From assembly GCF_900155545.1 (NCBI RefSeq), contig NZ_LT732526.1, forward strand, positions 3,566,837 to 3,630,836: 64,000 nucleotides of DNA. The letters are read 5' to 3'. This stretch comes from Clostridium sp. Marseille-P2415 (lineage in GTDB: Bacteria; Bacillota; Clostridia; Lachnospirales; Lachnospiraceae). Under the pieces are notes generated by a model. It did not search any database. It was not told the DNA's origin and saw only the letters and a program-made list of their open reading frames with translations. Of the stretch, positions 4,059-63,995 are shown piece after piece. Made by a program: the position numbers and the translations under genes. Within the stretch, counting starts at the first letter, position 1, and every line of letters starts with the position of its first letter.

Positions 4059-4590
4059 TTGATAATTCCTCCATATATTTACGTACCATTAATTTGGCGC
4101 GGTAAATTCTCATTTGTACATTTTTTTTATTAATATTAAGAATCTTAGCTATATTATCATCACTGAGATCATTGATATATTTCAGTTCCAATGCAGCACG
4201 ATACTTATAATCCAATTTATCCAGGGCTTTTACAAGCATCTCATAGGATTCTATATTAATCACAATATTTAAAGGATCAAATCTTTCATTCTGATAATCC
4301 ACTGTATCAGAGAATTCTTCTTCCTTTACATTCTTATTCTTCCGCCAACGGCTGATACAATAATTGCGCGTCAATGTGATTACATAATTTCTGGTCCTTC
4401 TCTCATTATTTTCATCAATCCGATTGAGATTTTCACCAACAATCAAGTAAATATCCTGTAAGTAATCCTCAATATCAGCTTCATTGGATATGAATCTTTT
4501 TACCGTATAAAAAATGAACTTTCTGTATTTGTCATAAAGCCGGATAAACTTGCTCTTTTCTTCTTCCGTATCAAAAATCATGAATATCAT
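4039..4590 (-). CDS. ECF-type RNA polymerase sigma-70 factor
   Basis: About 183 residues, the usual ECF size. Region 2 is seen early (FIRLYDKYRKFIFYTVKRFI, then DIEDYLQDIYLIV, and RTRNYVITLTRNYCISRWRK, the -10 recognition helix). Region 4 follows (ALDKLDYKYRAALELKYIND, then LSDDNIAKILNINKKNVQMR), the -35 binding helix-turn-helix. I prefer the ATG at 4590, because an AGGTGA site that includes the upstream gene's stop codon lies about 6 bases before it; a GTG at 4599 is the alternative. The gene sits between an XRE regulator and the DUF4367 protein, as one tightly packed operon. No ECF-type target promoter was identified with confidence. Confidence 0.85.
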   Translation of the reverse strand: MIFMIFDTEEEKSKFIRLYDKYRKFIFYTVKRFISNEADIEDYLQDIYLIVGENLNRIDENNERRTRNYVITLTRNYCISRWRKNKNVKEEEFSDTVDYQNERFDPLNIVINIESYEMLVKALDKLDYKYRAALELKYINDLSDDNIAKILNINKKNVQMRIYRAKLMVRKYMEELSSGEIGS

Positions 4591-4595
4591 CGCAT

Positions 4596-4928
4596 TCACC
4601 TGTTCAGGTCTGCATTTTTAACCATGACTTCCACTACATCATATATCTTTTTCTGTTCCGCAAACGGAAGACCTTGAATCAATTCACCAAGCTTTGAACC
4701 TTTTATTTCATAATGGGTCCGGATCTGATATCCAAGCAAATCGTCTGCAGAAACAGACAGGATATTGGCAATTTTTATAAAACTATCCAGGCTGGGGGTT
4801 TTGACTCCCTGCTCAATGCTTGCAATAAAAGCTGTACTCAGACCAGCCTGTTCCGCCAGAACTTCCTGACTTATGCCTTTTCTTTCCCGAAACAGCTGTA
4901 CATTTTTCCCTAACAAGGTTCTATCCAT
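4596..4928 (-). CDS. XRE-family transcriptional regulator
   Basis: A 110-residue protein with a lambda-repressor-like helix-turn-helix in its first half (LGKNVQLFRERKGISQEVLA, then LSTAFIASIEQGVKTPSLDS), plus a short C-terminal helix region. The frame is open further upstream to 5051. However, GGAG lies 8 bases before the ATG at 4928 and nothing upstream looks protein-like, so 4928 is the better start. It is the first gene of the operon with the ECF sigma factor (the sigma start overlaps its stop) and the anti-sigma-like gene. An inverted repeat 29 bases upstream may be its own operator. Confidence 0.8.
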   Translation of the reverse strand: MDRTLLGKNVQLFRERKGISQEVLAEQAGLSTAFIASIEQGVKTPSLDSFIKIANILSVSADDLLGYQIRTHYEIKGSKLGELIQGLPFAEQKKIYDVVEVMVKNADLNR

Positions 4929-4956
4929 TGGCATACTCCATTCGTTGTATTTTATT

Positions 4957-4971
4957 AATACTACAGGTATT
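4957..4971. promoter_or_regulatory. inverted repeat AATAC-N5-GTATT, candidate XRE operator
   Basis: A perfect 5-bp inverted repeat with a 5-base spacer (centre TACAG), just upstream of the XRE start and beside TATA-rich promoter-like sequence. The size and spacing suit an XRE dimer. That the neighbouring regulator binds here is inference. Confidence 0.4.
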
Positions 4972-5107
4972 AGATATAGTATACATATACATATTTTCCA
5001 ATGAAAGAACCTTAAAGTATTAGTGTCATACCATAAGTAATTCCATTTCAATACTACAATTTTCGGACAAGGTTAATCGAAATACCTGTGAAATAAATGA
5101 TATGCCT

Positions 5108-21190: not shown

Positions 21191-24100
21191 TTAATTTTCC
21201 TTTTTCTTTTTGCTAAGTGCCGCATAAAGAGCCATCATGAATCCGGATAATGCTACCATCACCTTTCCGGCGGCATTTTTCCGTTCGCCCGTCTTAGGCA
21301 GATTGGCAAGCGGTACGTTTCCGTCGTCAATATTCAGTAGATCAACGGATCCGTCGCCTGGCAGACCGGCAAGAGGCACCTGGTCCGGTATAATCGTCAC
21401 AACACCGGGACCGTTTGAAGGATCTCCACCGGAAGAACCTCCCGGGGAACGTCCGCCGCCGCTGTCTCCCCCGCTGTTCCTTATTTTCTCATCCTGTATG
21501 GTAATGGTGAAGCTGTTGATTCCATCCAGAGTTACAGGCGGGATGTGATCGTTAATATAATATCCGGACGGAGCCTTTGTCTCAATGAAGGTATAGGTAT
21601 CCTTCGGCAGTCTCTTAATGATAAACTGTCCGTCGCTGTCAGTTACAAACGTTCCGGCGGACGCCTTCTCGTCTGTATATCCGTCAAAGGAACCACCATT
21701 CAATTTTACGTATCTGCCATCCGAAGCTTTCAGGATAAACCCGGCACCGCCAAGCTTTGTATCCGCATAGACCGCATTGGTCTTTATTACGGTGATCTTT
21801 GAAGGCATATTGGCAATTGCGCCGTTGGTCTTTGTAAATAACACAGGTGCAGTATGCCGGATCACCTTACTTGTTTCATTGACGGTAAACTCTGCGGTCC
21901 ATGGTTCGCTGCCCAGGATATACCCATCCGGCGCTTTTGTCTCTGTCAGCCGGTAGGTTCCATAGGGCAGGTTTGTAATGACTCCCCTTCCGCTCAGCAC
22001 AAAGGTTATGGTATTTCCGGCCACATCCCCTGTCGTCCAGGAAGCGCCCTCTGACGCTGCCTGATAGCGGTAACTGTCCCAGGCTCCCGGAACCAGGGTT
22101 GAAAGGTTCGTAAGCGTGAATTCTGCTCCGTTAAGCCTCTTATCCGTGTTTTCGCTGTCTACCTTCTCCAGTTCCAGATTTCCGGTACTGATCTTATTGG
22201 TTATTGTCAGGGTTACAGATGAGTCTTTTGAAACAGCAGCCGCGCCGCTGTTATCCTTTAAGATGCTTCCATTGCCTTCCTCATCAATTCTGATATAGAA
22301 TGGACCAATGGGATCATACCGGCCGGAAGAAATCTCCCTTATCCGGTAATCGCCGTGTTTTAAGCCCAGAAGAATCAGTCCGTCGCCGTCAGTCGTAAAT
22401 AACCCAGTGTCAGATTCTGCACTCGCGTTAAACCGGCCAGCCCCAAAAACGGATAAAATACCCTCCTCTTCATACCGGCCCGGACCCAATATTTCGAACT
22501 GCATTCCGCTGATGCTGCGTCCAAGATCATCCACTTTCTTAAGCCGGAGTTCAAACTGTGCCCGCTCGTTGACAACCTGATTGCCGTTGCCAAGGTCAGC
22601 CGCCTTTTGATCCTCTGTAATGGTAAAGGTAAACTCAGCCTTTCCATTCAGGCTTAAATATCCTTTTGGTGCGTTCTCTTCCTTAAGCGTATAGGTTCCG
22701 TATGGGAGCCCTTCCATGCTTACATGACCGTTTACCGCCGTAAAGCGGATAACACTGGCCTCCGTCTCAACGCCGCTGATCCCCATTGCCTCCAGCTCTT
22801 CCTGGCTCCTCTGAACCAGATTTGCTGCAAAATGATCAAAGGCACCGTCTACCTCCGTTTCCTTCCCTGTCAGAGAAAACCGGGCCGACGCAAGGGCTTC
22901 TCCTGTTAAGCGGTCAACTTTATCAAATACCAGAGAACCGGTTCCATAGTCATTGGTTATAAAATCACTGCCATCTGCCCGGACCGTAAAGACCTGGCTG
23001 TCATCCTTTAATGTCACTTCGTATACTCTGTCACTTGCCTCATAACCTGCAGGAGCCTTCTGCTCCTTCACATAATAGGTCCCCAGAGGAAGCATTTCTG
23101 ATTCCCCAAAGCCGTCGTTTCCAGTTGTCATAGTTCCTGCAAGTGCTGTCAGACCCTCATCGGAGTAAATCCCGAATACTGCTCCGCCCAGCTTCCTTTC
23201 ATGATCGTGGGACGCAACCTTGTTGATACGTATTTGGGCCCTGTTCCTCACATCATATACGATTACAGTCTCTGTATTGCCTGACTGCAGTACCGTGACC
23301 GGCTGATCTGCAGATACTGCATAGTTGGCAGGCGCTTCGATTTCCTTCAAAATATAGTTTCCTGCCGGCAGGCGTTTTATGGTAACCCTGCCGTCGTTTC
23401 CGGTTGTGAACCTGGAACCATCCAATTCGCTGTCGTTAAACCCGCTGTAAGAATGATCTTCATTCAGGCTGACATATTTTCCATCTGCATTCATTAATAC
23501 AAATACAGCACCGGACAGCACCTCATCCGTCACCTTATCCCGTTTTTCAATGTTCAGTTCATGAGGAATATTAACCACTGCATCGTTTCCTGTCAGACGG
23601 ATCCCTTCATCGCTTTCAATATTAAACTCCCTGGTCCATTCACTTCCGCTGCTGAACAGATATCCTTCCGGCGCCTTAATTTCCTTCAGCGTATAGCTGC
23701 CGTATGGAATCTGTGTCAAAAGTCCTGTCTTTGAATCTGAACTTCCATCCACCTGGAACCGGATCCAGAGCCTTCCGCCGTCGTTTCCTGCCGATACACC
23801 GGAAACGCCCAGCCCGGTAACATGTTTCTGGTAAGCAGCGAACGCCCCTTCGATCACAGAGGTTCCGCTGAGCTCAAACTGAGCTCCCGCGATGGCTTCT
23901 CTGCTCTCACGGTCGACCTTCTCAATGGAAAGCTCTCCCGTCCTGACCTCATTTGTCACTGCCACGTTGATCTGCTTCTGGTCCGCGCTGTTTAACGTAA
24001 GCTCGCTGCGGTCTTCGGCATCCAACAGGGATACCGTTCCATTCGCATCAATTCTCACGTAAAATGGCTCAACCGTCTCATACCCCGCTGCATCCGACTC

Positions 24101-27100
24101 TTCGATCCTGTAATCCCCATAAGGCAGATTCCAGGTAACGAGGCCCTCTGCATTGGTTTCTTTCACTTCATATCCGTTCCCGGACGGATCGTTTAACTTA
24201 AATTTCGTTTTGCCAAACGGGATCCAGGAACTGTTCCCATACTTTCCGGGACCGTAAATGGCGAACTTTATTCCGGATACCTTATCATTTCCGGCATTAT
24301 CTGCCTTCTTAAGGCTTAAGCCGTACTCTGTCCTGGTATTCTTAATGATGTTTCCTTCATGGTCCGCAAGCACTGCCTTCTGTCCGTCGGTTTCAATGTG
24401 AAATGTCATATCCGCCGGCTTCTTTGTGATATCATATCCATCCGGCACCCGGATCTCCGACAGGGTGTAGCTTCCAAATGGAATTCCTGTCAGTGTTACC
24501 TTGCCTGATGCCACTTCAAAATCGACTGAGCTGTCTGTGGCCTCTACCTCAGCCACTCCCATGGAGTCCGGATCAGCTTTCATAGCTGCCGTAAATGCTT
24601 TCCATGCATCTTCTACCACCGTACCGTTTTTCTCGATCCGGAATGCTGCTCCGGCCAGCTCTTTACCAGTCAGTCCGTCTTCCTTCGTAAACTCCAGCAT
24701 TCCCGACACATAGCTGTTCTGAACCGTTATGGTGCTCGGTACCGCATTCTCAGCCGTTTTAAACTCCTTGCTGGGCAATACCCAGGCCTTCTGACCGTTC
24801 ACCTGATAGGATTCCATGACACTCATATCCCCGGTCCTTGCATCAGCGATCTGATATCCGGCGGGAGCACCATCCTCTACAATGATGTAATTCCGATAAT
24901 ACAGGAGTTCCCCGGCATTCCATACTGCCTCACCGTCTGACAGGACAGTACTTCCCTCAGCCGCCGGAGCACCAAGAATGCTTGCGTCCGTAATTCCGGT
25001 TTCACGAAATGTTTTCATTTCTTCGTTGGTAAACGGGCCATATGCTCTAAAGTGAGCGCCCTCCACAGGGTTACCGGCTTGGTTGATCTTTTTAATTGTT
25101 ACATTTCTGTACGGTACGAAACCAATGTCCTTTGTCTTGTCATAGTCATCTCCTGCCGACCACAGGAAGAAATCTTCAGAGGCATAAGAGCCCTTGACTT
25201 CGTTAAAGTTGCTGTCAAGGCTTTCCCCGTAATTGCTGCCCCCTGCTGCCAGAGTCTGAGGCAGCCTGGATCTTCCGGCTTCCTGATTTACCCCTGTTGC
25301 AAGCATAACAGGCTTCGCCAGCTTAAGCACCAGATCCTCATATCCTTCCGGCATGGTGCCGGTGGTCACATAAATCCGGTAATGGGCAGGATCTTCCCCT
25401 TTCAGCTTCGAAGGGATCAGCGATTGACCGCTGTACCAGCTGTCTTCCTGCTCTTTGGTGAATTCGGATCCGGTTATTCCGAACGGCTTAGCCGGGGTCA
25501 GCCCATCAAATAAGAATCTGGCATCGCTTAACCCTGCCGTACCTGCCGCTTCATCGTCACCGCTCTTACTGTACTTTAGCAGGCTGACGTTAAAATAACC
25601 GGATTGAAGCACCGGAAGCAAATCAGTCAGCAGATGATCCTTCTCAATACTTTCATCCTGTATTCCGTTGTTATTATCGTCGATCCAGATCCGTCCTGAT
25701 ACCTTTACATTGCCAGGAACCAGAACTACCTGAACCGCATTGCTGGTTTGAACCTGTGAAAATTTGGTGTCAGAAGTCTCTGATAAGTTTTTCTTATAGC
25801 TGTAGGAGGTTGCAAAATCGTTTACCGCATACCCATAAGCTTCCTCATCCAGTTCCTTCATTGTGGTATACGGAACCGCCGCCTTATAAGTCACCACCAG
25901 GTTCTCGCCCGGAGCCAGATAGAACCCGGGATCCGTGATTTTAATGCGGATGGCCGTCGGATCACTGATACCGCCGTTCCAGAATCCATCGCTGTTATCA
26001 TTCAGCATGGAGTCCCTGCCCGCTCTTGTTGTTTCTTTGTTCTGAAACGCCTCGCCGGAGTAAGTCACCTGATAGTCAAAGCCCCGGACCTTTCGTCCCG
26101 CCGTGTTATCTGTCCTGTTCTCAATGGCGATCGACTGGATATTCTCATATCCCAGCCGGTAATCACTGAGCCGTTCAAAATTGCCGGTACTGTAATCTCC
26201 CTTGACCGGAAGGATATCCATGAGCTGCAGCTGGGTCACAAAATCCGTGGCAGAAGCATTGTTCACAGTAAGCCGGTATAATACGGTACCGTCATAATCG
26301 GTCATATCCCCATCTTCCGCGCTCTTTGCTACCTTGCCCACCGTTGTTCCGGATACAAATCTCGTGTCTAAGTTCCCCTTTACCTCCTTATGGAGAATCA
26401 GCCCGGTTCCGGTGCTCATGGTGTTTTCGGCGGAGTCCGAGGCATACCCGTAGGTGCGGTATTTTTCATCCGGCAGCTGCACATCCTTTGGTAAGTCCGC
26501 GCTGGGCCATTTGCTTCCGGTCAAGGTCTCAATCATAAAGGAAGCACCTGTCTGGTTTAAGGAAAATGCAGGCTGCAGAACATCACTTGTAACGTAGAGC
26601 TCATTGAGAATATTCTTTCCATAATTGATAATGCTCCCGGCAATCTGCGATTTTACCTGGACCGTTACGGATTCCCCCTTCTTTAACTCCCCATCCAGCT
26701 GAATGAACAGAGTCTCCTGACCGGTTTTCGCATCAACCTTTCTGATGGTTTTTTCAATCGTAACTCCTTTCGGTCCATCCTTTAACTCAACGGCCTTTAA
26801 CAGGCGGTTTTCTCCGTTGGATTCTCCGGAAACGGTAACTCCAGGCGGAACATGGTCAATGAGGACCGGCCTTCTCATCGGTACAATGCCGGAATCGTCA
26901 CTTGTGGTAGCGTTCTTTACATAAAGCGTATATGTCAGGGTATCATCCGGCTGTATGCTTCTGACCGGATCAACGCTCTTTTTTACCGAGATAACCGGCG
27001 CCTGGCTCTGAACAACCTGGAGGTCGCAGTCCTTCCTTGCCTCACTCGTTTCCTGACCCTGGGTCAGTGTTCCGTTCCAATCCCATTTCCTGAAGTACAT

Positions 27101-30100
27101 GGTCGCATCGGCCTGATTACGGATATACTTGATTTCTTTCTTATAATTTCCATTGGACAGCTTTGCATCCTGACGGCTCAGCTTAACCGTGACCTCTACG
27201 CTTCCGGGCACAAAATCCTGGCCGAGAACATATTGGTTCTCCGTAGAGCCTTTCAGGGTGTCATTCCGGTAGCTGATCCGGAAGGATCTCACCTTTTTGC
27301 CGCCGGCCGGTTTTACCGGACTGATCTCACCGTCACCGGATACGCGGACACTCTGCACTTCTCCCACCTGATTTCCATTAAAATCATAGAAAGTCACATC
27401 CGCCATAATGGTTCCTGTCTTTGCGTCCCTGATCCGGTTCTGCTCCGCCGCTTTTCCCGGCTTTACTGAGGTGATCGTATATTTTTCATAGGTATACTCA
27501 TCCTCAGAAAGAACATTTTTACCTGCATCCAGCATCTGCAATCCTGTATCATTGATCACAAACTGATCCAGCGGTATGCTGTTGGTCACATTCGGAGTCA
27601 GCGTATAGGTTACAGTCTGGCCGTCATTCCACCAAAGATCCTTTAACGCAGCTGCGGAAGATGTCTTATCCAGTGTTACTCCGGTCTTCTGTTTCACATT
27701 TGTGAACTCGCAGGAACCGGGAATTTCTCCTTCTTTAATTGTTACTTCTTTCTTATAAATTGTTCTGGCATCATCCTTGTTGATGACATAGCCCTGGCTG
27801 TTCCGGGTGACCGCAGTCTCTTCAATCTCATAGGTTCCCGGCAACAGCTGTATGGTTGTGCCCGTTTCCCCATATGGTACGGCGATTAAATCCCCCACCT
27901 GTCTGCGGGTTTCTGCGTCTGTAACCTTCATAAATGCTGTAATTGCACCATCCGGATTATCAGACTTATTTACATCGTTCTTAATGAGCTTTAAAGGCAG
28001 AGCTTCCTGGTTATGGGCCTTAAATCCATATACACCCGGAGAAACGGTTCCGCTTCCTGTCAGCACATAAAGGTCAACACCGGTTATTGTTTCCCCGTTC
28101 TTTATCACATCCGCGGTTGTCGGAAGGATGGTTCCTTCCTCCCCTTCAAAGGAAGCCATACGGTATGTTTCAAACCCCTGCTCCTTCTTCGTAACCTCAT
28201 AAACGGCATAAGAATCGCCTGCCGGAAGCTCCAACCCCCGAAATGCCAGTTCACCCCCGGAATCGGTGGTTCCTCCGGCAACATAGTTCCACGGGCCGCT
28301 GCCGGATTTCCGGTAGAGTTCAAAGTCTAATCCGGCTTTTAATGATTCCGTGCCTCCATTCCCGCTGTATTTGGTGATCTGCAGATCAATGCCGCCCTGA
28401 TTCTGTACGGTGAGCGGGCTTTCCATACCGGTTTCGACTGTTAACCCCTCCGCCGGTATGGCTGTCTGGATCGCAATGTAGCCTGCCGGAGCATTTACTT
28501 CTCTTACGTAATATGTTCCGGGGTTATAAGACTTGGTGGAGAATACAATTTCGTATACACCGCTCTGCCCGATTTCCGTGAAATCACCGACCTCCTTGGT
28601 CAGATCCGGATCGGAATACAGCTTAAAGGCTGCCCCGGATAATTTCTTTGAAGGATCCGCACCGTCAACCTTGGTCAGGCTTACCTTTGCCTTCGCATAT
28701 TGGTTGTTAACCACAACGGATACCGGGCTGCCGGAAGTAAACTCGGCTCCCGTTCCTGCCTGAATATAGCCGTCTGCCCAAAGCGTTCCGTTTTGAATTC
28801 CACCTTCTGCCGGAATCATCCAGTCCGGATTTTCCTGTTCCTTCAGATAGTAGGCACCGCCTTCCGGATTCTGAGGAAGAAGTACGGTCCCGGCTGCGGT
28901 ATAGTAACCATCCTGAGCCCTAAAGTTCCGAATTTTTACCTGGACCGGTTTATTTCCTTCATCCAATACCCGCTTATAAGCATGATCGGAATACGTGTAA
29001 ACATCAAATACGATTTCAGCCGGAAGCTTCTGCGCGATGTCCCCATCGTTCCGGAAACCATCGCCGAAATCAAGCCTTTTGGTTACTGTTAATTCTGCTT
29101 TCTTTCTGTTTTCAAAGGTCACATCGGCCGTTTCTTCATAGCCTGCTGCCATATCTCCCACAACAGCCGTAACCATTGGCTGTGCGGCAGCCGTATAACC
29201 TTCCGGAGCCTTTTGTTCCGTAATCCTATACCAGCCCGGCGAACAGTCCTTAAGCGCATAGGTGCCGTCTCCGTTATCGGTCAGACTTCCTGATATGGCC
29301 TCAAAGCCCTGTTCCGGTTTCTGATAACCTTCATCCTGCACATTCTGCAGCACGCCGCCGATTAAGTCAGTGCCTGACCGGAACTTCAAATATTCCAGCT
29401 GAAAGGAAGCTCCTGCCATCACCGGGCCACTTTCCTTCGTTTCCGCATCTGTTTTATGGATAACGAGCTCCGCAAGACGCGGATTTTTAACGGCTGCGGA
29501 CACGGTCTTACCTGTCACGCTGTCTCCTGCAGGAGTTAAATACACCTTTTCCCCTTCGGCTTTGGCCATATATCCCACATTTACCGCTGACGTTTCAAAA
29601 TAAACATTGGTTACGGCTTTTGCCGCATCAACACTTAAGGCTTCTCCCTTTATGGTGTAAACGCCGCTGTCCAGGTTTTTAAAGCTGGCAGCAAATCTGC
29701 CGTCCTCCATTTTCCCGGTAACAGCTTTTATCTCACTGCTCCCGGACTTTTGGATGGTAAATGCAATTCCGTTAAGGCTTATGGAAGGATCCCCGTTCCA
29801 TGTGGTTTTTTCAATCTCCAGATCCGGCTTCTCCGGATTGTAAACAGTCACAGTGGAAGGCGTGCTCCCTACCGTAAAATATCTCCAAAGATTGCTCTGG
29901 CCGGTATACATGGTGATATATTTCTTCTGCTGCCCGCCTGTCAGAGTTTCCTTCAGCCTGTAATGCCCGGCCTTTAAGCCACCCGGAACCGTTACCCGGC
30001 CATCGCTTCCGGTCGTATAAGTTCCCGTTTTAACATAGCTGTAGCCGGTATCCTTCCACTGATACTGCCAGACTTCAAATTTCACTCCGCTTAACGGAGT

Positions 30101-33100
30101 TTTATCAATGTCCAGGCCAGCCAGTTCCTCATCTGTTTTACCAAAAGTGCCGGTATCAGGCCGGTATCCGTATTTTACAAATGTTACCGGATATTCCCCG
30201 GACACCTTATTTATCAGGCGGAACGCCTCCGGTTTTCCTGTCTTCCAGAAATATTGTTCATCAATATAATCCTTATTTTTCGGAACCGCTGCCTCAAGAT
30301 AATGAAGCGTTGTATCCATCTGGACCTTGGAAGGCGCATAAACCTCTTCCAGGGCAAAGACCGCCTTTACCTGTTCCCTGCCTTCATCAAGCTTAAGAAC
30401 TTTTTCCGGATCAAGCCCCTTATTCTCAAGCTCAGTTTTTAGCTTCCCCATGTTGATCATCTGGGAAAGAGCATAGCCTGTTTTATAATGATCATCCGAT
30501 TCCAGACCGGTTTCAACCACTTCAATGGGAAGCAGCTTTTCTTTTGTCTCAGGATCCACCAGCCATATCCGGAACTTCGCTCCACCCAAGAGCGTTGGCT
30601 CAGCATTTGGTTTTGTATCATCCCCCAGCCATTTATTTAATGCAATCTGGAAATAGTACGCAGAAAGTCCACCCGGGTCTTCCCCATGCTGGTTTTTCAC
30701 CACAGCGATCTTTTCATTGCGGCCGCTTTTATACAAATGCAGCATTCCCTTATAATCCTTATATCCGGAGTTTTCCGGTGCAAATACGGCTACGATCTGA
30801 CGTCCGCCAGGTAATTTATAGCCAGGAGCTGCCTCTTCCTCTACCAGCCAGTATACCTTGCCGGTTTCCAGAATGGCCGTATCAAACTGGCCGTCTGCCC
30901 TTTTCTCTGTGGCCGGATCGATCCGGGTACCGCTTTCATAATTGTCTACTTTCTCAAATTGGGTTTCATCCTCCAGATCTTCTAATTTGATTTTAGACAG
31001 ATTCTTATTTTCCGCCTTCATCTTATAGAGGGTGAACTTCGCTCCGTTAACCGGCTCCGGCGTGTGCCGGGTTCCGTCGGCTGCGATCCCATCACAGGTC
31101 TTTAATATATGAAACTGAACCCAGGGCTTATAGTTGTAAAGCGGACCGGTATACTGGATCAGAGAATCCGCAGTATTTACAAGGTCCTTTCCCGTATATT
31201 TAACCGCATTGTATTTTCCTGCCTCTAAGTCTGCTGCCGAAAGCGTCTTCGGAGGTTCTCCGTTTCCTTCCGCCAAAGGTGTTTTATCTTTCATATTCAA
31301 GTCAAAGCCAAATCCGGTTTCTTCCCTGGTCGGAACCCGTACTTCAACCACATAATAGGTATCATTCCGGTTAATATCATAGAAGGTTGCAATGCCGTCA
31401 TAGGCATTGGTGGTTTCCGTTTTAACATACTCCGCAATGCCGGCCTGGTTTACCTTATAAAGCGCCAGCTTTACATTTCCAAGAACATGGTCAACCGGAT
31501 AGAACTGATAACTCCATTCATCCTGCCAGTATTTCTGAGTGCGGATGGTCAGCTTTGGTTCATTCTGAATGACAAGGGCACTGCCGCCCGCATCTCCGTT
31601 GACCGTAGTGATGACCGTGCCTTCCTTTAGCGCAGTAGTAAGAATTTCATAGGACTGCAGATAACCGGTCGGAGGTGTGATTTCAGCAATAACATAGGAG
31701 ATCCTGTTTCCGCTGCCATCAAAAATTTTCAAATTCCTGCTGTCAAAGGTCACCTGGCCGTTTCCACTGGTGGTTAACTTCTGGATCGGTTTTTTTATGC
31801 TGTCCGCCCAGTGATTCACATCAAACTGGTCCGCCCTGAATATACCAAGCACCGCTCCTTTCAGGGCAGTATTTCTTAAGGCATCCTTTTTGGTTACTGT
31901 TACCTTTCCATAGTCCTGGTAATTCTCTAACGGTTTGTTTCCTTTTCCCAGATTGATTTCCTGATTCTTTTCATTGGCTGCTGATGCAGCAGTTACAATA
32001 ACCGGCCCATAGTACACATCAGTCCCGCGAACTTCATAATCCGGATGAATCCCTTCCGCCTTATCGGACAGCAGGTAATAGGAATTGATAAATCCACTGG
32101 GAACAACTTCTTTAAAATAATACGTTCCGGGAGCAAGCGGGGTCAGTTCATTGGAGTAGAGGCTGCCCGTCTTTCCGAATTTGCCATTGTTTTTTACATA
32201 AACTTCAAATGGGATTCTGGCACTCTCATCCTCACGGTCACCGGTATAATACTGTATCTTTCTGATCAGAACCGATTTATATGGCTTGTTTTCAAAGGTC
32301 AGACGAGTCTCTTTGCTGTTCTCCCCAAACCATTTTTCCAGCTTTTCCCTTGTTACAGGCCCGGACGGAGTCGTAATATCACGATTCCCACTTTTTTCAA
32401 AATTGAAAGGCGGCGTTATCTCTTCGACAGTATAAGTGGTTCCCGGATCAAGGGAAACATATCTGCCGTCCCTGGAAACGTAATCTTTCCATACGACTTC
32501 TCCACTCCCCTTTTTTGTTATTTCAAACTCTGCGGAAATATCATTGTCTTTATCTGTAATATCGGTTTTATAAAGCCAGTAAGGGATCTTCTGCGGAATG
32601 TTGTATGCCTTTACAGACGTATCACTTTCCCTGTTTACCTCATAAGGACCGATAAAAGGCTTGATCCCTTCAAAAGTCCACATATTCCTCATTTTTCCAG
32701 TATCATCCACTTCCAGCCTGCCGTCGCTTCCGACCTCACACCAATAATAATCTTTGGTAACATCAAGGCCTTTGACTGTGATTTCACCGTTGCTGTCCGT
32801 GGTATAGATGGTTCCGGGCGATACTTCATATAAATAGCCGCTGTACTTAAATGCAGCATAAAGTTTAAACTGAAATCCCCGCTTTGAAGCATTCTTGTCT
32901 AACGACCCGTAATTGATTGACCATGCTTCCTTTTGAAGCTTTAACGTACCTCCTTTATTATTTTTCAGGTCAACGAAAGCTGTCTTTAAAGGTTCTAACG
33001 AAAAGGTCTTATAAACATAGGTCCTGTTATCCTTTGTTTCACAGGAATAGCCGTTTCCATATCCATTGCCGTCTGAATATCCCTCCGGCACCTCCTCTGC

Positions 33101-36100
33101 AACGCGGTAAAGAATCTTACGGTTATCCCCATCGGAAACAGGAAGTGTGGCCATAAACCGGCTGCTGCCGTCAAGAGAATACGTGACCCTGGAATCAATG
33201 CTTACTTTTGTCCATGTGATCCCATCTGTGGATTTTTCAAACCAGAATCTGTCATTAAAATCTCCCCGGAAGCTTTCCGGCACCTTACTATAACCGCCCT
33301 GATCGTTTTGAATCCACTTCTTAACATTTACTTTTGCTTCATTTAATGTATTAACAATAAAATTCCCATTTTGCCTGATTGGAGAAGTCTGGCCGGCAGC
33401 CACGGTTACAGCATAATCCTTCGTATCAACGATATAGCCATTGGCGCTCTTTTCTCTTACAACGTACTGGCCCGGTGTGACCGGCTTAAATAAGACAGCT
33501 CCGTTCCCATCCGATTTTACAGTTTTGACTTCCTCCAGCTTCCCCTCTTTATTCTTCTGATAAAGAGAAAATTCCGCTCCCTCCAGGGAATTAAGATCCT
33601 TGTCAGCCAGATCCGCGCTGTTCCAGGTACGGGCCTTCTTATAAAATTCTATGGCTCCTTTACCTATGACTCCGTTAATAACCGTAACCTCTGCAGTTTC
33701 CCCTGCCTTCAGAGTGACCTTAATGTCTTCCTCTTTCCCAACGGCTGCAGTTCCTACCGCCGCGGAGCTGAATTCGGTTCCTACCGGTTGATTCACTTCC
33801 TTAATGACATACGTTCCCGGATCAACCTGAACCCGAATGGAACCATCCTCGCCTGTAGTATAATAACCGTTTTCCGTTTCCCCGTTTGATGGATTAACTA
33901 CAATTTTATCACTGTCAATTTTTTTGTTATATCTGTCTATAACCGTGTAGTTAGTGTACGGAATCCGTTTGTTGTCCGAATCCAGGGAAAATATCTCAAA
34001 ACCTGCCATCCCGGGGTATTCCTTCTCCATGGCCAGACCATATTTCTGAATGACCCCAACGCCTTCATCAATCTCTTTTTTAATCTTAATCACAGCCGGT
34101 TTATTAACTTCATGTATTGCAACAGCCGCAGCAGAGTCTTCCGTCACCTTTTGAGCTGTTCCCAGCTTGGTGTACTCCAGCCGGGCATAATTGTTGACCG
34201 TAAATACCGAATCATCTCCAGCCCGTTCATCGTTGTACTTCAGTAAAAACGGTTCATATGGATAGCGGGCCGTTACCAGATAGGAACTGTAGGTAGGCGC
34301 TGATTCTGAGACAAATATATGGTCTGCCGCATTCTGCCCCTGTGTCTTGAATTCATCGATGGTGATGGACCCATCCGGATTGTCAGTGAAATTCACCTTC
34401 GAGCCATCTCCCCATTTTGCGGTTACAGAGACAGGCTTCATGGCCTCCGGGGCATTGGGTGTAGTGATTTTTAAGGAATCTGTGATCTGAAAGCTATCCT
34501 TTAGAAAACCGGTCCGTCCATACGTCTGATAAATGGTGCCTCCCGGCTGCCTGGATATTTCGCCCGAGCTTCCATATATACCCATTTCAATAAGATACGT
34601 AATGTCCACAAACTCCGGATTCCCGGCATCATCCCTTACGACCGTATAAGATTGATCATTGGGATATACTCTTTTTTTGATATGCCATACATCATCGGAT
34701 TGAAGTATCAATGAGGTGTTCTCCGGCTGTTCCGCATAAGTGACCGTTTCAATGTTTCCCGGGTAGGTAACATTGTCCTTATCTGTCTTATCTGCAACCT
34801 TAACATCGGCATAAAAAGCAACGCTGTCCTCAGGTAACTTAAAGTGTTCTCCTACCGCTCTTTCCCCATTCCCGTCAATAAACGCATTTATGGCAATGCT
34901 GTCTGACTTACCCGGACGGATCGCATTCTGCTCATCCCCCACACGGATTTCATAGACCTTGCTGTTGCCGTTGGAGGAGATCAGTTTCACTTTTCCTGCC
35001 TGCTCCTCTAACGCAATGCCGGCAGGAACGGTAAATTCAATCCTTGAGTTCTCATAGGTATCAAACAGGGAAAGCTTCCCGCCTGCCGCATATTCATAAA
35101 GGGGCGCTGCCTGCATGGTATAGGTGATGGTATAGGTATACAGAATTCCCGCCTTTATGGAGCCGGTTTTGCTCTGTGCCAGATTAATTTCAACGGTATC
35201 CTTCTTTTCTGTGGAATCCGGTCCATAATAGGTCAGAGCGGTTTCATAAGGCGTGAGCTTTTCCTCTTCACCGCTCACTTCCGTGTTTAACGTTGTGATT
35301 CCTAAGCTGCGGACCACCATGCTGAATGATGGCTGGCTGGTAAAGGAGAATAAACTTACGCTTTTTTTCCCGTCATTTCCTTCGTCTGCATCCGTTCCCA
35401 TCAGAGCAGCTCTTTCCTCTTCTGATAAGACCCTGGTTTCACCTACGGAAATAATATCAGGCTCTTCCTGATAAAAAGTTTCACCCGCTGCTTCGGAATC
35501 CGTTGCAAGCGAATCCGCGGTACGGAAAAGTACAGGAACTTCATGCTTTGTTAAGGTAACTCCATCCGCTCCTGTGATGCGCCTGCTTATGGAAACCGCT
35601 TCGCCGTCCGCCCCGGCATCTCTCTCATCGGATTTTTCATCATCAGAAGCATTGTCATTGCTGATTTCCTCTTCCTGGTTCACATCCTCTTCATGAACCA
35701 CATCCTCAGAAGCCTCAACAGCTTCGATTGAATCCTCCGCTGCATCCTCTGTTTCATCCGCTGTGTCATCTGTTTTAACTTCTCCGGCCTTTTCCCGGAT
35801 TTCTTCAACCGGTTCCGTACTGTTTTTTTCTGCCACATTGGTCTCATCCGCCTTTGTCTCTCCTTCTGTTACAGCGGTTGTTTCCCTGATACCGGAGCTG
35901 CCGGAATGATCTCCGGCCGCCGAAGTTTTCGTGACCGCTTCTTCCTGTGCATTTTCTCCAACAACTTCGTACTCCTCCAGCTCAGCATTCGTTACTGTTA
36001 AATCATCGCCTAAGATCCGAAGCCGGAATTCACATTCCCGGTCTTTATAGCCGTTCACACCAATGATCCGAACATTTTGAAGAGCAGATTCCTGTTTGAT

Positions 36101-36556
36101 CCGTTCCGATTTTTCGGTTTCAAAAAACGGCTCTCCATCCAGAGTATCGGAAACCACTACCATATACATGGCTTTTCCTACTTTTTTCTGAAGCACCAGG
36201 GTCTTCTCCTCCAGCTCTTCATACAGCTTTTGTATTACCAGTTCCTTTTGTTCCCCTTCAAAAGGAACCAGTTCCTCCTTTAATTCCGGTCTGTTGTCAA
36301 AATCCTTTTTTAAAACCTTCTCAATAGCAGACTGAGTGACCCTGACATCAATGATCCGCCTTGCCTCTGACGGGGTCGCTTCTGATGGAGATGCCTTCCC
36401 CGCATTGGAAGAAGATGCGGTTTTACGCTCCGATGTTTCCGCAGCGTATGCCGTAGTAACGGTAAGCTGTGATATGTTTCCGGTAACAATTGCAGCTGTC
36501 AGTAACCAGGCAATTACCCTTTTTAAGCGGTGTACGTTCCTTATAGCGCCCTTCAT
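21191..36556 (-). CDS. giant LPXTG-anchored Cna-B/SpaA-repeat surface protein
   Basis: A single frame encodes 5121 residues, presumably displayed on the wall by sortase. ATG 36556 has AAGGAGG 8 bases upstream; a TTG at 36562 is too close. Layout: a signal peptide (residues 1-40, ending TTAYAAETS); a conserved N-domain (about 50-185); an acidic Glu/Asp/Ser/Thr linker (195-330); an adhesin-like region (about 340-820); a first block of Cna-B/SpaA folds (about 825-2950), each ending in an E-box such as YVIKEVNQP or YRITEQKAPEGY; DUF11/isopeptide-like domains (2955-3600); an SdrD-B-like unit with WIDDNNNGIQD near 3620; and a second SpaA block (3820-5029). A Gly/Ser linker, LPKTGE, a hydrophobic helix and KKKK end it. 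E-boxes imply self-forming Lys-Asn bonds. No sortase gene lies in the window. The binding target is unknown. Confidence 0.93.
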   Translation of the reverse strand: MKGAIRNVHRLKRVIAWLLTAAIVTGNISQLTVTTAYAAETSERKTASSSNAGKASPSEATPSEARRIIDVRVTQSAIEKVLKKDFDNRPELKEELVPFEGEQKELVIQKLYEELEEKTLVLQKKVGKAMYMVVVSDTLDGEPFFETEKSERIKQESALQNVRIIGVNGYKDRECEFRLRILGDDLTVTNAELEEYEVVGENAQEEAVTKTSAAGDHSGSSGIRETTAVTEGETKADETNVAEKNSTEPVEEIREKAGEVKTDDTADETEDAAEDSIEAVEASEDVVHEEDVNQEEEISNDNASDDEKSDERDAGADGEAVSISRRITGADGVTLTKHEVPVLFRTADSLATDSEAAGETFYQEEPDIISVGETRVLSEEERAALMGTDADEGNDGKKSVSLFSFTSQPSFSMVVRSLGITTLNTEVSGEEEKLTPYETALTYYGPDSTEKKDTVEINLAQSKTGSIKAGILYTYTITYTMQAAPLYEYAAGGKLSLFDTYENSRIEFTVPAGIALEEQAGKVKLISSNGNSKVYEIRVGDEQNAIRPGKSDSIAINAFIDGNGERAVGEHFKLPEDSVAFYADVKVADKTDKDNVTYPGNIETVTYAEQPENTSLILQSDDVWHIKKRVYPNDQSYTVVRDDAGNPEFVDITYLIEMGIYGSSGEISRQPGGTIYQTYGRTGFLKDSFQITDSLKITTPNAPEAMKPVSVTAKWGDGSKVNFTDNPDGSITIDEFKTQGQNAADHIFVSESAPTYSSYLVTARYPYEPFLLKYNDERAGDDSVFTVNNYARLEYTKLGTAQKVTEDSAAAVAIHEVNKPAVIKIKKEIDEGVGVIQKYGLAMEKEYPGMAGFEIFSLDSDNKRIPYTNYTVIDRYNKKIDSDKIVVNPSNGETENGYYTTGEDGSIRVQVDPGTYVIKEVNQPVGTEFSSAAVGTAAVGKEEDIKVTLKAGETAEVTVINGVIGKGAIEFYKKARTWNSADLADKDLNSLEGAEFSLYQKNKEGKLEEVKTVKSDGNGAVLFKPVTPGQYVVREKSANGYIVDTKDYAVTVAAGQTSPIRQNGNFIVNTLNEAKVNVKKWIQNDQGGYSKVPESFRGDFNDRFWFEKSTDGITWTKVSIDSRVTYSLDGSSRFMATLPVSDGDNRKILYRVAEEVPEGYSDGNGYGNGYSCETKDNRTYVYKTFSLEPLKTAFVDLKNNKGGTLKLQKEAWSINYGSLDKNASKRGFQFKLYAAFKYSGYLYEVSPGTIYTTDSNGEITVKGLDVTKDYYWCEVGSDGRLEVDDTGKMRNMWTFEGIKPFIGPYEVNRESDTSVKAYNIPQKIPYWLYKTDITDKDNDISAEFEITKKGSGEVVWKDYVSRDGRYVSLDPGTTYTVEEITPPFNFEKSGNRDITTPSGPVTREKLEKWFGENSKETRLTFENKPYKSVLIRKIQYYTGDREDESARIPFEVYVKNNGKFGKTGSLYSNELTPLAPGTYYFKEVVPSGFINSYYLLSDKAEGIHPDYEVRGTDVYYGPVIVTAASAANEKNQEINLGKGNKPLENYQDYGKVTVTKKDALRNTALKGAVLGIFRADQFDVNHWADSIKKPIQKLTTSGNGQVTFDSRNLKIFDGSGNRISYVIAEITPPTGYLQSYEILTTALKEGTVITTVNGDAGGSALVIQNEPKLTIRTQKYWQDEWSYQFYPVDHVLGNVKLALYKVNQAGIAEYVKTETTNAYDGIATFYDINRNDTYYVVEVRVPTREETGFGFDLNMKDKTPLAEGNGEPPKTLSAADLEAGKYNAVKYTGKDLVNTADSLIQYTGPLYNYKPWVQFHILKTCDGIAADGTRHTPEPVNGAKFTLYKMKAENKNLSKIKLEDLEDETQFEKVDNYESGTRIDPATEKRADGQFDTAILETGKVYWLVEEEAAPGYKLPGGRQIVAVFAPENSGYKDYKGMLHLYKSGRNEKIAVVKNQHGEDPGGLSAYYFQIALNKWLGDDTKPNAEPTLLGGAKFRIWLVDPETKEKLLPIEVVETGLESDDHYKTGYALSQMINMGKLKTELENKGLDPEKVLKLDEGREQVKAVFALEEVYAPSKVQMDTTLHYLEAAVPKNKDYIDEQYFWKTGKPEAFRLINKVSGEYPVTFVKYGYRPDTGTFGKTDEELAGLDIDKTPLSGVKFEVWQYQWKDTGYSYVKTGTYTTGSDGRVTVPGGLKAGHYRLKETLTGGQQKKYITMYTGQSNLWRYFTVGSTPSTVTVYNPEKPDLEIEKTTWNGDPSISLNGIAFTIQKSGSSEIKAVTGKMEDGRFAASFKNLDSGVYTIKGEALSVDAAKAVTNVYFETSAVNVGYMAKAEGEKVYLTPAGDSVTGKTVSAAVKNPRLAELVIHKTDAETKESGPVMAGASFQLEYLKFRSGTDLIGGVLQNVQDEGYQKPEQGFEAISGSLTDNGDGTYALKDCSPGWYRITEQKAPEGYTAAAQPMVTAVVGDMAAGYEETADVTFENRKKAELTVTKRLDFGDGFRNDGDIAQKLPAEIVFDVYTYSDHAYKRVLDEGNKPVQVKIRNFRAQDGYYTAAGTVLLPQNPEGGAYYLKEQENPDWMIPAEGGIQNGTLWADGYIQAGTGAEFTSGSPVSVVVNNQYAKAKVSLTKVDGADPSKKLSGAAFKLYSDPDLTKEVGDFTEIGQSGVYEIVFSTKSYNPGTYYVREVNAPAGYIAIQTAIPAEGLTVETGMESPLTVQNQGGIDLQITKYSGNGGTESLKAGLDFELYRKSGSGPWNYVAGGTTDSGGELAFRGLELPAGDSYAVYEVTKKEQGFETYRMASFEGEEGTILPTTADVIKNGETITGVDLYVLTGSGTVSPGVYGFKAHNQEALPLKLIKNDVNKSDNPDGAITAFMKVTDAETRRQVGDLIAVPYGETGTTIQLLPGTYEIEETAVTRNSQGYVINKDDARTIYKKEVTIKEGEIPGSCEFTNVKQKTGVTLDKTSSAAALKDLWWNDGQTVTYTLTPNVTNSIPLDQFVINDTGLQMLDAGKNVLSEDEYTYEKYTITSVKPGKAAEQNRIRDAKTGTIMADVTFYDFNGNQVGEVQSVRVSGDGEISPVKPAGGKKVRSFRISYRNDTLKGSTENQYVLGQDFVPGSVEVTVKLSRQDAKLSNGNYKKEIKYIRNQADATMYFRKWDWNGTLTQGQETSEARKDCDLQVVQSQAPVISVKKSVDPVRSIQPDDTLTYTLYVKNATTSDDSGIVPMRRPVLIDHVPPGVTVSGESNGENRLLKAVELKDGPKGVTIEKTIRKVDAKTGQETLFIQLDGELKKGESVTVQVKSQIAGSIINYGKNILNELYVTSDVLQPAFSLNQTGASFMIETLTGSKWPSADLPKDVQLPDEKYRTYGYASDSAENTMSTGTGLILHKEVKGNLDTRFVSGTTVGKVAKSAEDGDMTDYDGTVLYRLTVNNASATDFVTQLQLMDILPVKGDYSTGNFERLSDYRLGYENIQSIAIENRTDNTAGRKVRGFDYQVTYSGEAFQNKETTRAGRDSMLNDNSDGFWNGGISDPTAIRIKITDPGFYLAPGENLVVTYKAAVPYTTMKELDEEAYGYAVNDFATSYSYKKNLSETSDTKFSQVQTSNAVQVVLVPGNVKVSGRIWIDDNNNGIQDESIEKDHLLTDLLPVLQSGYFNVSLLKYSKSGDDEAAGTAGLSDARFLFDGLTPAKPFGITGSEFTKEQEDSWYSGQSLIPSKLKGEDPAHYRIYVTTGTMPEGYEDLVLKLAKPVMLATGVNQEAGRSRLPQTLAAGGSNYGESLDSNFNEVKGSYASEDFFLWSAGDDYDKTKDIGFVPYRNVTIKKINQAGNPVEGAHFRAYGPFTNEEMKTFRETGITDASILGAPAAEGSTVLSDGEAVWNAGELLYYRNYIIVEDGAPAGYQIADARTGDMSVMESYQVNGQKAWVLPSKEFKTAENAVPSTITVQNSYVSGMLEFTKEDGLTGKELAGAAFRIEKNGTVVEDAWKAFTAAMKADPDSMGVAEVEATDSSVDFEVASGKVTLTGIPFGSYTLSEIRVPDGYDITKKPADMTFHIETDGQKAVLADHEGNIIKNTRTEYGLSLKKADNAGNDKVSGIKFAIYGPGKYGNSSWIPFGKTKFKLNDPSGNGYEVKETNAEGLVTWNLPYGDYRIEESDAAGYETVEPFYVRIDANGTVSLLDAEDRSELTLNSADQKQINVAVTNEVRTGELSIEKVDRESREAIAGAQFELSGTSVIEGAFAAYQKHVTGLGVSGVSAGNDGGRLWIRFQVDGSSDSKTGLLTQIPYGSYTLKEIKAPEGYLFSSGSEWTREFNIESDEGIRLTGNDAVVNIPHELNIEKRDKVTDEVLSGAVFVLMNADGKYVSLNEDHSYSGFNDSELDGSRFTTGNDGRVTIKRLPAGNYILKEIEAPANYAVSADQPVTVLQSGNTETVIVYDVRNRAQIRINKVASHDHERKLGGAVFGIYSDEGLTALAGTMTTGNDGFGESEMLPLGTYYVKEQKAPAGYEASDRVYEVTLKDDSQVFTVRADGSDFITNDYGTGSLVFDKVDRLTGEALASARFSLTGKETEVDGAFDHFAANLVQRSQEELEAMGISGVETEASVIRFTAVNGHVSMEGLPYGTYTLKEENAPKGYLSLNGKAEFTFTITEDQKAADLGNGNQVVNERAQFELRLKKVDDLGRSISGMQFEILGPGRYEEEGILSVFGAGRFNASAESDTGLFTTDGDGLILLGLKHGDYRIREISSGRYDPIGPFYIRIDEEGNGSILKDNSGAAAVSKDSSVTLTITNKISTGNLELEKVDSENTDKRLNGAEFTLTNLSTLVPGAWDSYRYQAASEGASWTTGDVAGNTITFVLSGRGVITNLPYGTYRLTETKAPDGYILGSEPWTAEFTVNETSKVIRHTAPVLFTKTNGAIANMPSKITVIKTNAVYADTKLGGAGFILKASDGRYVKLNGGSFDGYTDEKASAGTFVTDSDGQFIIKRLPKDTYTFIETKAPSGYYINDHIPPVTLDGINSFTITIQDEKIRNSGGDSGGGRSPGGSSGGDPSNGPGVVTIIPDQVPLAGLPGDGSVDLLNIDDGNVPLANLPKTGERKNAAGKVMVALSGFMMALYAALSKKKKEN
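21476..24709 (-). repeat. duplicated four-domain cassette L-G-L-K / S / L-G-L-K in the adhesin C-terminus
   Basis: Nine consecutive SpaA-type domains (residues 3952-5029 counted from the TTG frame) fall into four classes. Class L: about 125 residues with a GA(W/F)..Y/F insertion. Class G: GPGxYG then an FGxxxF region. Class K: GKYVxLN or GRYVKLN then IKRLP. Class S: short, GIYSDEGL. Their order is L-G-L-K, S, L-G-L-K. Cassette 1 spans 23243-24709, the single S domain 22949-23242, and cassette 2 21476-22948. Within classes, phrases such as LPYGTYTLKE/LPYGTYRLTE and GPFYIRID/EPFYVRID recur. A segmental duplication followed by divergence explains this best. Confidence 0.75.
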
Positions 36557-36790
36557 ACCCAAATCCTCCTTTATTTCCCTTCCCCCTCAATATCAGTATC
36601 TATTTATAAGCTAAAAAAGGTTACACATTTTTGTATCAGTATACATCAGGCTGGTTACAAACCGGTTATTTTTCCAGATATTTATATTTTTTCCTATTTG
36701 TGTATTATGTTTAATCAAGCCTCATATTTTTTCATATTTTATATCTCTTTTTACCTATAAATTTTCATTTTACCTCCATTCTTTTTCATT

Positions 36791-63954: not shown

Positions 63955-63995
63955 CTGCTAATTTTTACATGTAAACTGCTATTTTTTACATGTAA
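63955..63995. repeat. tandem 20-mer with TTACATGTAA palindromes
   Basis: CTGCTAATTTTTACATGTAA (63955-63974) and CTGCTATTTTTTACATGTAA (63976-63995) differ at one base and are offset by 21 bases, two helical turns. Each ends in the palindrome TTACATGTAA. The array may continue past the window. It could be a regulator's operator pair for a gene beyond the edge, or iteron-like repeats. Confidence 0.7.

Follow-up and report, generated by a model that had tools for sequence, protein, structure and literature searches.

How a giant surface protein comes to carry the same order of unlike domains twice, and whether such an order marks a stalk of changing length, is the question raised by one gene in the window analysed here, a stretch of 64,000 nucleotides from Clostridium sp. 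Marseille-P2415 (contig NZ_LT732526.1, positions 3,566,837 to 3,630,836). The gene (21191..36562, minus strand) is an open reading frame for a giant SpaA-domain surface protein, with PF17802 matches in both halves; the product has 5123 residues counted from a TTG codon, or 5121 from an ATG two codons downstream. A preliminary description of the window had proposed that the last nine domains are of SpaA type, fall into four classes and read L-G-L-K / S / L-G-L-K, that this order arose by a segmental duplication of about 1.5 kb, and that the stalk could therefore vary in length between strains. The order and the duplication are borne out below, and the variable length is not: the super-repeat is old and well kept, with nothing to show that it is a variable-length device.

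The C-terminal tail contains an ordered four-domain repeat

The nine C-terminal domains span residues 3953-5028 (window 21479-24706, minus strand, as for all domains below) in the order L1-G1-L2-K1 / S / L3-G2-L4-K2. Cassette 1 is made up of L1 (residues 3953-4077; 24332..24706), G1 (4078-4206; 23945..24331), L2 (4207-4332; 23567..23944) and K1 (4333-4440; 23243..23566), and is followed by the single short domain S (4441-4541; 22940..23242) and by cassette 2, consisting of L3 (4542-4667; 22562..22939), G2 (4668-4793; 22184..22561), L4 (4794-4918; 21809..22183) and K2 (4919-5028; 21479..21808). Assignments of the L and K domains draw on alignment, blastp, trees, profiles and Pfam, that of G1 on the same sources save the tree, and that of G2 on alignment, blastp and profiles. 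The SpaA-type assignment holds for eight of the nine domains, which pass the PF17802 cut-off of 23.1 bits; G2, at 22.9 bits, lies 0.2 bits below it.

The two cassettes (1464 and 1461 nucleotides) are joined by a single end-to-end alignment with 35.4% identity over 503 columns (E 6e-84), in which the four domain pairs are collinear. When each cassette domain was compared by blastp with the whole protein, the best non-self match was the same-position partner in 8 of 8 cases, the narrowest margin being that of L2 (63.2 bits to L4 versus 61.6 bits to L3). Comparison of profiles built from six orthologues, all against all for 27 domains of the giant protein, returned the same pairs as reciprocal best partners (L1-L3 152, G1-G2 150, L2-L4 120, K1-K2 109), together with S and an upstream domain, B15 (86). 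Furthermore, among the 24 permutations of cassette order the true order scores highest (698, the next 611). An exact four-block repeat occurs in 0.3% of shuffles of nine-domain orders with five classes and in 0.9% with the four classes of the preliminary description; as the order was already known when the classes were defined, these frequencies are a guide only.

When 42 L domains from 12 genomes were placed in a tree, every L class (L1, L2, L3 and L4) formed one side of a branch (the weakest, L2, with support of 95/64), and L1 and L3 were split from L2 and L4 with support of 100/96; the single class L of the preliminary description is in fact two subclasses, L1+L3 and L2+L4. The outcome which that description had itself set against its proposal, namely that adjacent domains pair, was imposed as a forced L1+L2 grouping and was rejected by the approximately unbiased (AU) test (p 0.022), as was an L1+L4 grouping picked later (p 0.0033). 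The order repeat is real.

Origin of the domain between the cassettes

By both blastp and profiles, S is nearest to B15 (residues 2622-2725; 28388..28699), a body domain about 1,800 residues upstream, rather than to the domain that precedes cassette 1, termed X (residues 3818-3952; 24707..25111). The profile scores of S are 86 with B15, 56 with K2 and 30 with X. An alternative description, in which a five-domain unit X-L-G-L-K was duplicated in tandem and S is a diverged second X, has some support: the junction of X with L1 can be aligned with that of S with L3 (31%, E 4e-8), and the longest self-match run, at an offset of 588 residues, begins inside X. The junction match, however, takes in the beginnings of L1 and L3, which are homologous, and the best profile partner of X is not S but G1 (39), so that S as a fifth repeat member matching X is not supported by the profile comparison and this description is improbable. 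The four-plus-one arrangement is retained on account of the similarity between S and B15, and S would have come to sit between the cassette copies from elsewhere, perhaps as a copy of the far-upstream domain. In the comparison of 27 domains, the remainder of the protein showed no other such super-repeat, only the S-B15 pair and weak similarity.

Age and divergence of the cassettes

DNA identity within the four same-position pairs is 48-56%, and the longest exact word common to both cassettes is 10 nucleotides. Across 21 genomes the mean identity of the four pairs is 0.349, 0.357, 0.341 and 0.336 within genomes and 0.353, 0.353, 0.332 and 0.335 between genomes, and in this equality there is no sign of gene conversion between the cassettes. 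The four pairs are also equally diverged, and their equal ages fit one block event, in keeping with the proposed segmental duplication. The cassette duplication is older than the examined genus Lacrimispora, represented by 25 genomes including that of the window, one per species.

A second way to reach the same arrangement is by domain duplications one at a time, the identical order being imposed by selection on folding or spacing that favours unlike neighbours. That neighbours are kept unlike because this counters aggregation has been proposed in print (PMC1553488), and a second SpaA-rich giant encoded by this genome matches itself at a period of about 90 residues, the length of one domain. 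The equal divergence of the four pairs and the one continuous alignment that joins them all argue against it, and we consider such stepwise growth slightly less probable again than the five-domain unit.

Tail conservation and two shortened forms

The complete nine-domain tail is found in 22 of the 25 Lacrimispora genomes, at 100% identity in the genome of the window and at 60-76% in the others; the exceptions are two short tails (genomes G011 and G012) and one tail cut by a contig end (G016). The tail alignment (25 rows from 21 genomes, of which four have two rows each) has 1078 columns, and the length of each domain varies by at most 2 residues. In a Lacrimispora xylanisolvens genome of 89% completeness the frame of the giant is fragmented (L055, L071), likely as a result of a noisy assembly, and its tail keeps all nine domains.

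The tail of G012 (Clostridium sp. HBUAS56010) consists of L3-G2-L4-K2 only, and that of G011 (Clostridium sp. E02) reads L1-G1-L2-K1-G2-L4-K2. In G012 the joint lies in register between the end of X, which also precedes the shortened tail, and the end of S, the segment L1-G1-L2-K1-S being missing. A chimeric L domain at this joint was considered and rejected: there is no clear L1-like part, and the first 25 residues resemble both L1 and L3. A tree built by a quick method from the protein outside the tail (9 rows; residues 1501 onwards; 2512 columns) places G011 as the sister of G004, and G012 as the sister of G001 plus G022, both being nested among nine-domain species. The single cassette of G012 falls in the cassette-2 clade, and placement outside it is rejected by the AU test (p 0.0205); this result and the tree position lead us to reject a single-cassette ancestral state for G012. 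The same glutamate dehydrogenase gene adjoins the short-form and the other Lacrimispora loci (22 of the 22 loci compared, from 17 genomes). Given the nested positions, the clade of the G012 cassette and this common neighbour, the short tails are best read as two separate, later deletions at domain borders.

Between species, tail length does vary in two lineages, probably through clean deletions, which is not the variation between strains that had been suggested. A third explanation takes the tail for a variable-length 'periscope' stalk, whose cassettes recombine today and whose number differs between strains and sets the reach of the tip. It is supported by the difference in length in 2 of the 24 genomes in which this could be judged, and by the in-register deletion of five domains in G012. 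Periscope proteins, however, have highly similar tandem domains, and high DNA identity is the proposed driver of changes in their number, in the part of the paper available (PMC8201768); the Lacrimispora tail lacks such identity between its repeats, bears no sign of gene conversion and is whole in 22 of 25 genomes. Length switching of this type is rejected as the principal explanation by the low DNA identity and the mostly constant length, and is the least likely of the three.

A predicted self-stapled stalk

The tail domains agree with a CnaB-type beta-sandwich fold, and a Lys/Glu/Asn-or-Asp triad is present in 9 of 9 tail domains in 21 of 21 genomes. Between the last domain and the end of the protein lies a glycine-rich linker with a doubled LPXTG-type motif (LPKTG at 21287-21301) and a hydrophobic and charged tail (21194..21478), which matches the NF033073 doubled-motif anchor at 86.7 bits against a cut-off of 48, and the genome itself has three sortase matches over cut-off. 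Nine SpaA/CnaB-like domains carrying the triad make a self-stapled, sortase-anchored stalk the most likely role of the tail, as judged from sequence. The chain would hold the rest of the anchored giant off the cell wall, and each domain would be stapled by a Lys-Asn or Lys-Asp isopeptide bond, formed with the aid of Glu, so that the chain could resist unfolding under pull. A Pfam scan of the whole giant protein gave SpaA and weak sub-threshold matches only; an adhesive domain outside the existing models may be present.

Two short tandem repeats were also recorded in the window: a 21-bp unit present 1.9 times at 35736-35775, in an acidic stretch of low complexity close to the 5' end of the gene for the giant, and a 21-bp unit present twice (95% match) at 63955-63995, at the end of the window.

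The explanation as a whole, and the points that count against it

Taken together, the L-G-L-K block would have been duplicated once, before the Lacrimispora species separated, within a stapled stalk, with S coming to lie between the copies; the copies would have diverged to about 35% identity and would no longer exchange sequence, and two lineages would later have lost some of the domains by deletions whose ends fall at domain borders. We regard this account as probable in its entirety.

Several observations weigh against it. By raw identity in global alignments, L1 is slightly closer to L2 (40%) than to L3 (38%), and L2 slightly closer to L3 (45%) than to L4 (44%); the alignment scores, unlike the raw percentages, favour same-position partners throughout, so that the pairwise comparison proposed in the preliminary description has the expected outcome by score with near ties in identity for some L domains. 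The grouping of L1 with L2 is rejected at no better than the AU p value given above. The best local DNA match between the cassettes, a stretch of 48 nucleotides at 79% identity (E 3e-7), joins out-of-register places. A relative in [Clostridium] asparagiforme, described below, has an L domain that groups with L4 (95/89, in an L tree for which the program gave a long-branch warning), which, read literally, would date the split of L2 and L4 before that lineage separated. With regard to the stalk, the model of the nine-domain tail has a low predicted template modelling score (pTM 0.43), and the putative isopeptide bonds are read from residues. Finally, there is a slight chance that the repeat arose through four independent duplications that shared one order.

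A more speculative proposal concerns why the order was kept in both copies through the Lacrimispora radiation while the sequence drifted. L-G-L-K may have persisted because the pattern itself works: each cassette would act as a single unit, for mechanics or for binding, opposite a regular partner of the cell envelope, as a bacterial counterpart of the ruler-like super-repeats of titin, and contact would be made through class G and through the L domains, which bear a helix. We see only a slim chance of this.

Occurrence outside Lacrimispora

The profile of the four-domain cassette has a full-length match in 2 of 397 genomes of the family, both Lacrimispora, and some match in 239 of the 397 (at most 4 candidates being scored per genome). 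The middle of the giant protein is found in 2 of the 397, again both Lacrimispora (at most 2 candidates scored). Class G occurs at full length in 5 of 392 genomes of the order, all of them Lacrimispora, and 8 others have partial matches of at most 27.1 bits.

[Clostridium] asparagiforme DSM 15981 (L077, L180), which we take to be Enterocloster asparagiformis, has a protein distantly related to most of the giant (28.6% identity over 3763 columns). This relative ends in a two-domain L-K tail with an anchor, and the glutamate dehydrogenase gene is absent from the L077 locus. Among 17 genomes of this genus, that of [Clostridium] asparagiforme included, 14 have some match and only its own exceeds 53 bits; the gene was possibly acquired by transfer. 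In view of the long-branch warning attached to the grouping with L4, the L-K tail, which may instead be a further reduction, is not claimed as the ancestor of the cassette. Matches were also obtained in 27 phage records, with identities of 22.8-27.8% among the ten matches listed, which we read as generic SpaA similarity.

Comparison with other repeats

Multi-domain repeats were sought in the longest frames of 86 non-Lacrimispora loci (L024-L051, L078-L135), two frames of less than 600 residues being dropped. A self-match run of at least 300 residues at a period of at least 200 residues, that is, of more than one domain, was found in 14 of the 84 remaining SpaA-rich frames; this set is biased towards matches of the present tail, is cut by locus ends and contains some mutual relatives. 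The frames at L097 (Catenibacillus scindens) and L103 contain multi-domain repeats of much higher identity, with periods of 364 residues at 79-82% and 219 residues at 64-71%, and are better candidates for a variable-length stalk. The second SpaA-rich giant of the genome under study (L192; G000:C8:946500-966000), a frame of 4668 residues with a sortase gene nearby (G000:C8:948849-949331), resembles the first only at 23-25% over SpaA domains, and by the same rule no multi-domain repeat was found in it.

The comparisons with published systems that follow hold for the parts of the cited papers that were available. In the titin A-band a fixed series of domains repeats, domains in the same place are most alike, and recursive block duplication has been proposed (PMC10665226). 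The Lacrimispora tail is similar in that an ordered block of unlike domains repeats with same-position domains most alike; titin differs in having eukaryotic Ig and FnIII domains in many copies, where the bacterial protein, anchored to the wall, has a block of four CnaB-type domains twice. Domain repeats are known to expand several domains at a time, as in nebulin, by seven, and the survey in question reports that repeat proteins make up a far smaller share in prokaryotes (PMC1553488), whereas the present case is bacterial.

Comparable, too, are the giant adhesins of Mobiluncus, of which two relatives differ by a 21-domain block and whose growth by domain duplication is presumed by the authors; these are likewise very long LPXTG proteins, with cross-linked domains where those of the present tail are predicted, but they contain Ig-like ester and isopeptide domains, and in the available text no ordered two-copy cassette was seen (PMC10619420). 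Like periscope proteins, the present protein would be a repeated-domain surface stalk whose length sets reach (PMC8201768), but periscope proteins have highly similar domains in changing number, and here the identity is 35% and the number is constant in 22 of 25 genomes. With the SpaA (PF17802) domains that form the stalks of fibrillar adhesins and sortase pilins it shares fold, family and the Lys/Glu/Asn-or-Asp triad (PMC8286594, PMC12617251); unlike known SpaA stalks, it has the L-G-L-K order and a full-length class G, which in the genomes searched are confined to Lacrimispora. No description of an L-G-L-K-type arrangement in bacterial surface proteins or in Lacrimispora was found in the titles and opening abstract lines listed for open-licence PubMed Central papers. 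Within that scope, the novelty suggested in the preliminary description stands for this protein and not for the kind, since block duplication is in print for titin and nebulin; long stalks built by copying multi-domain blocks are already well known, and this protein is a further, bacterial case.

Significance

The tail is a clean bacterial multi-domain super-repeat with a relative date: it is older than the examined genus, has no later homogenisation and has been trimmed on two apparently separate occasions. A repeated domain order in a giant surface protein need not, then, mean a hypervariable stalk, and DNA identity between the repeat units is a quick discriminator. Tails of four, seven and nine domains, all at the one locus, form a small natural test set for the effects of stalk length.

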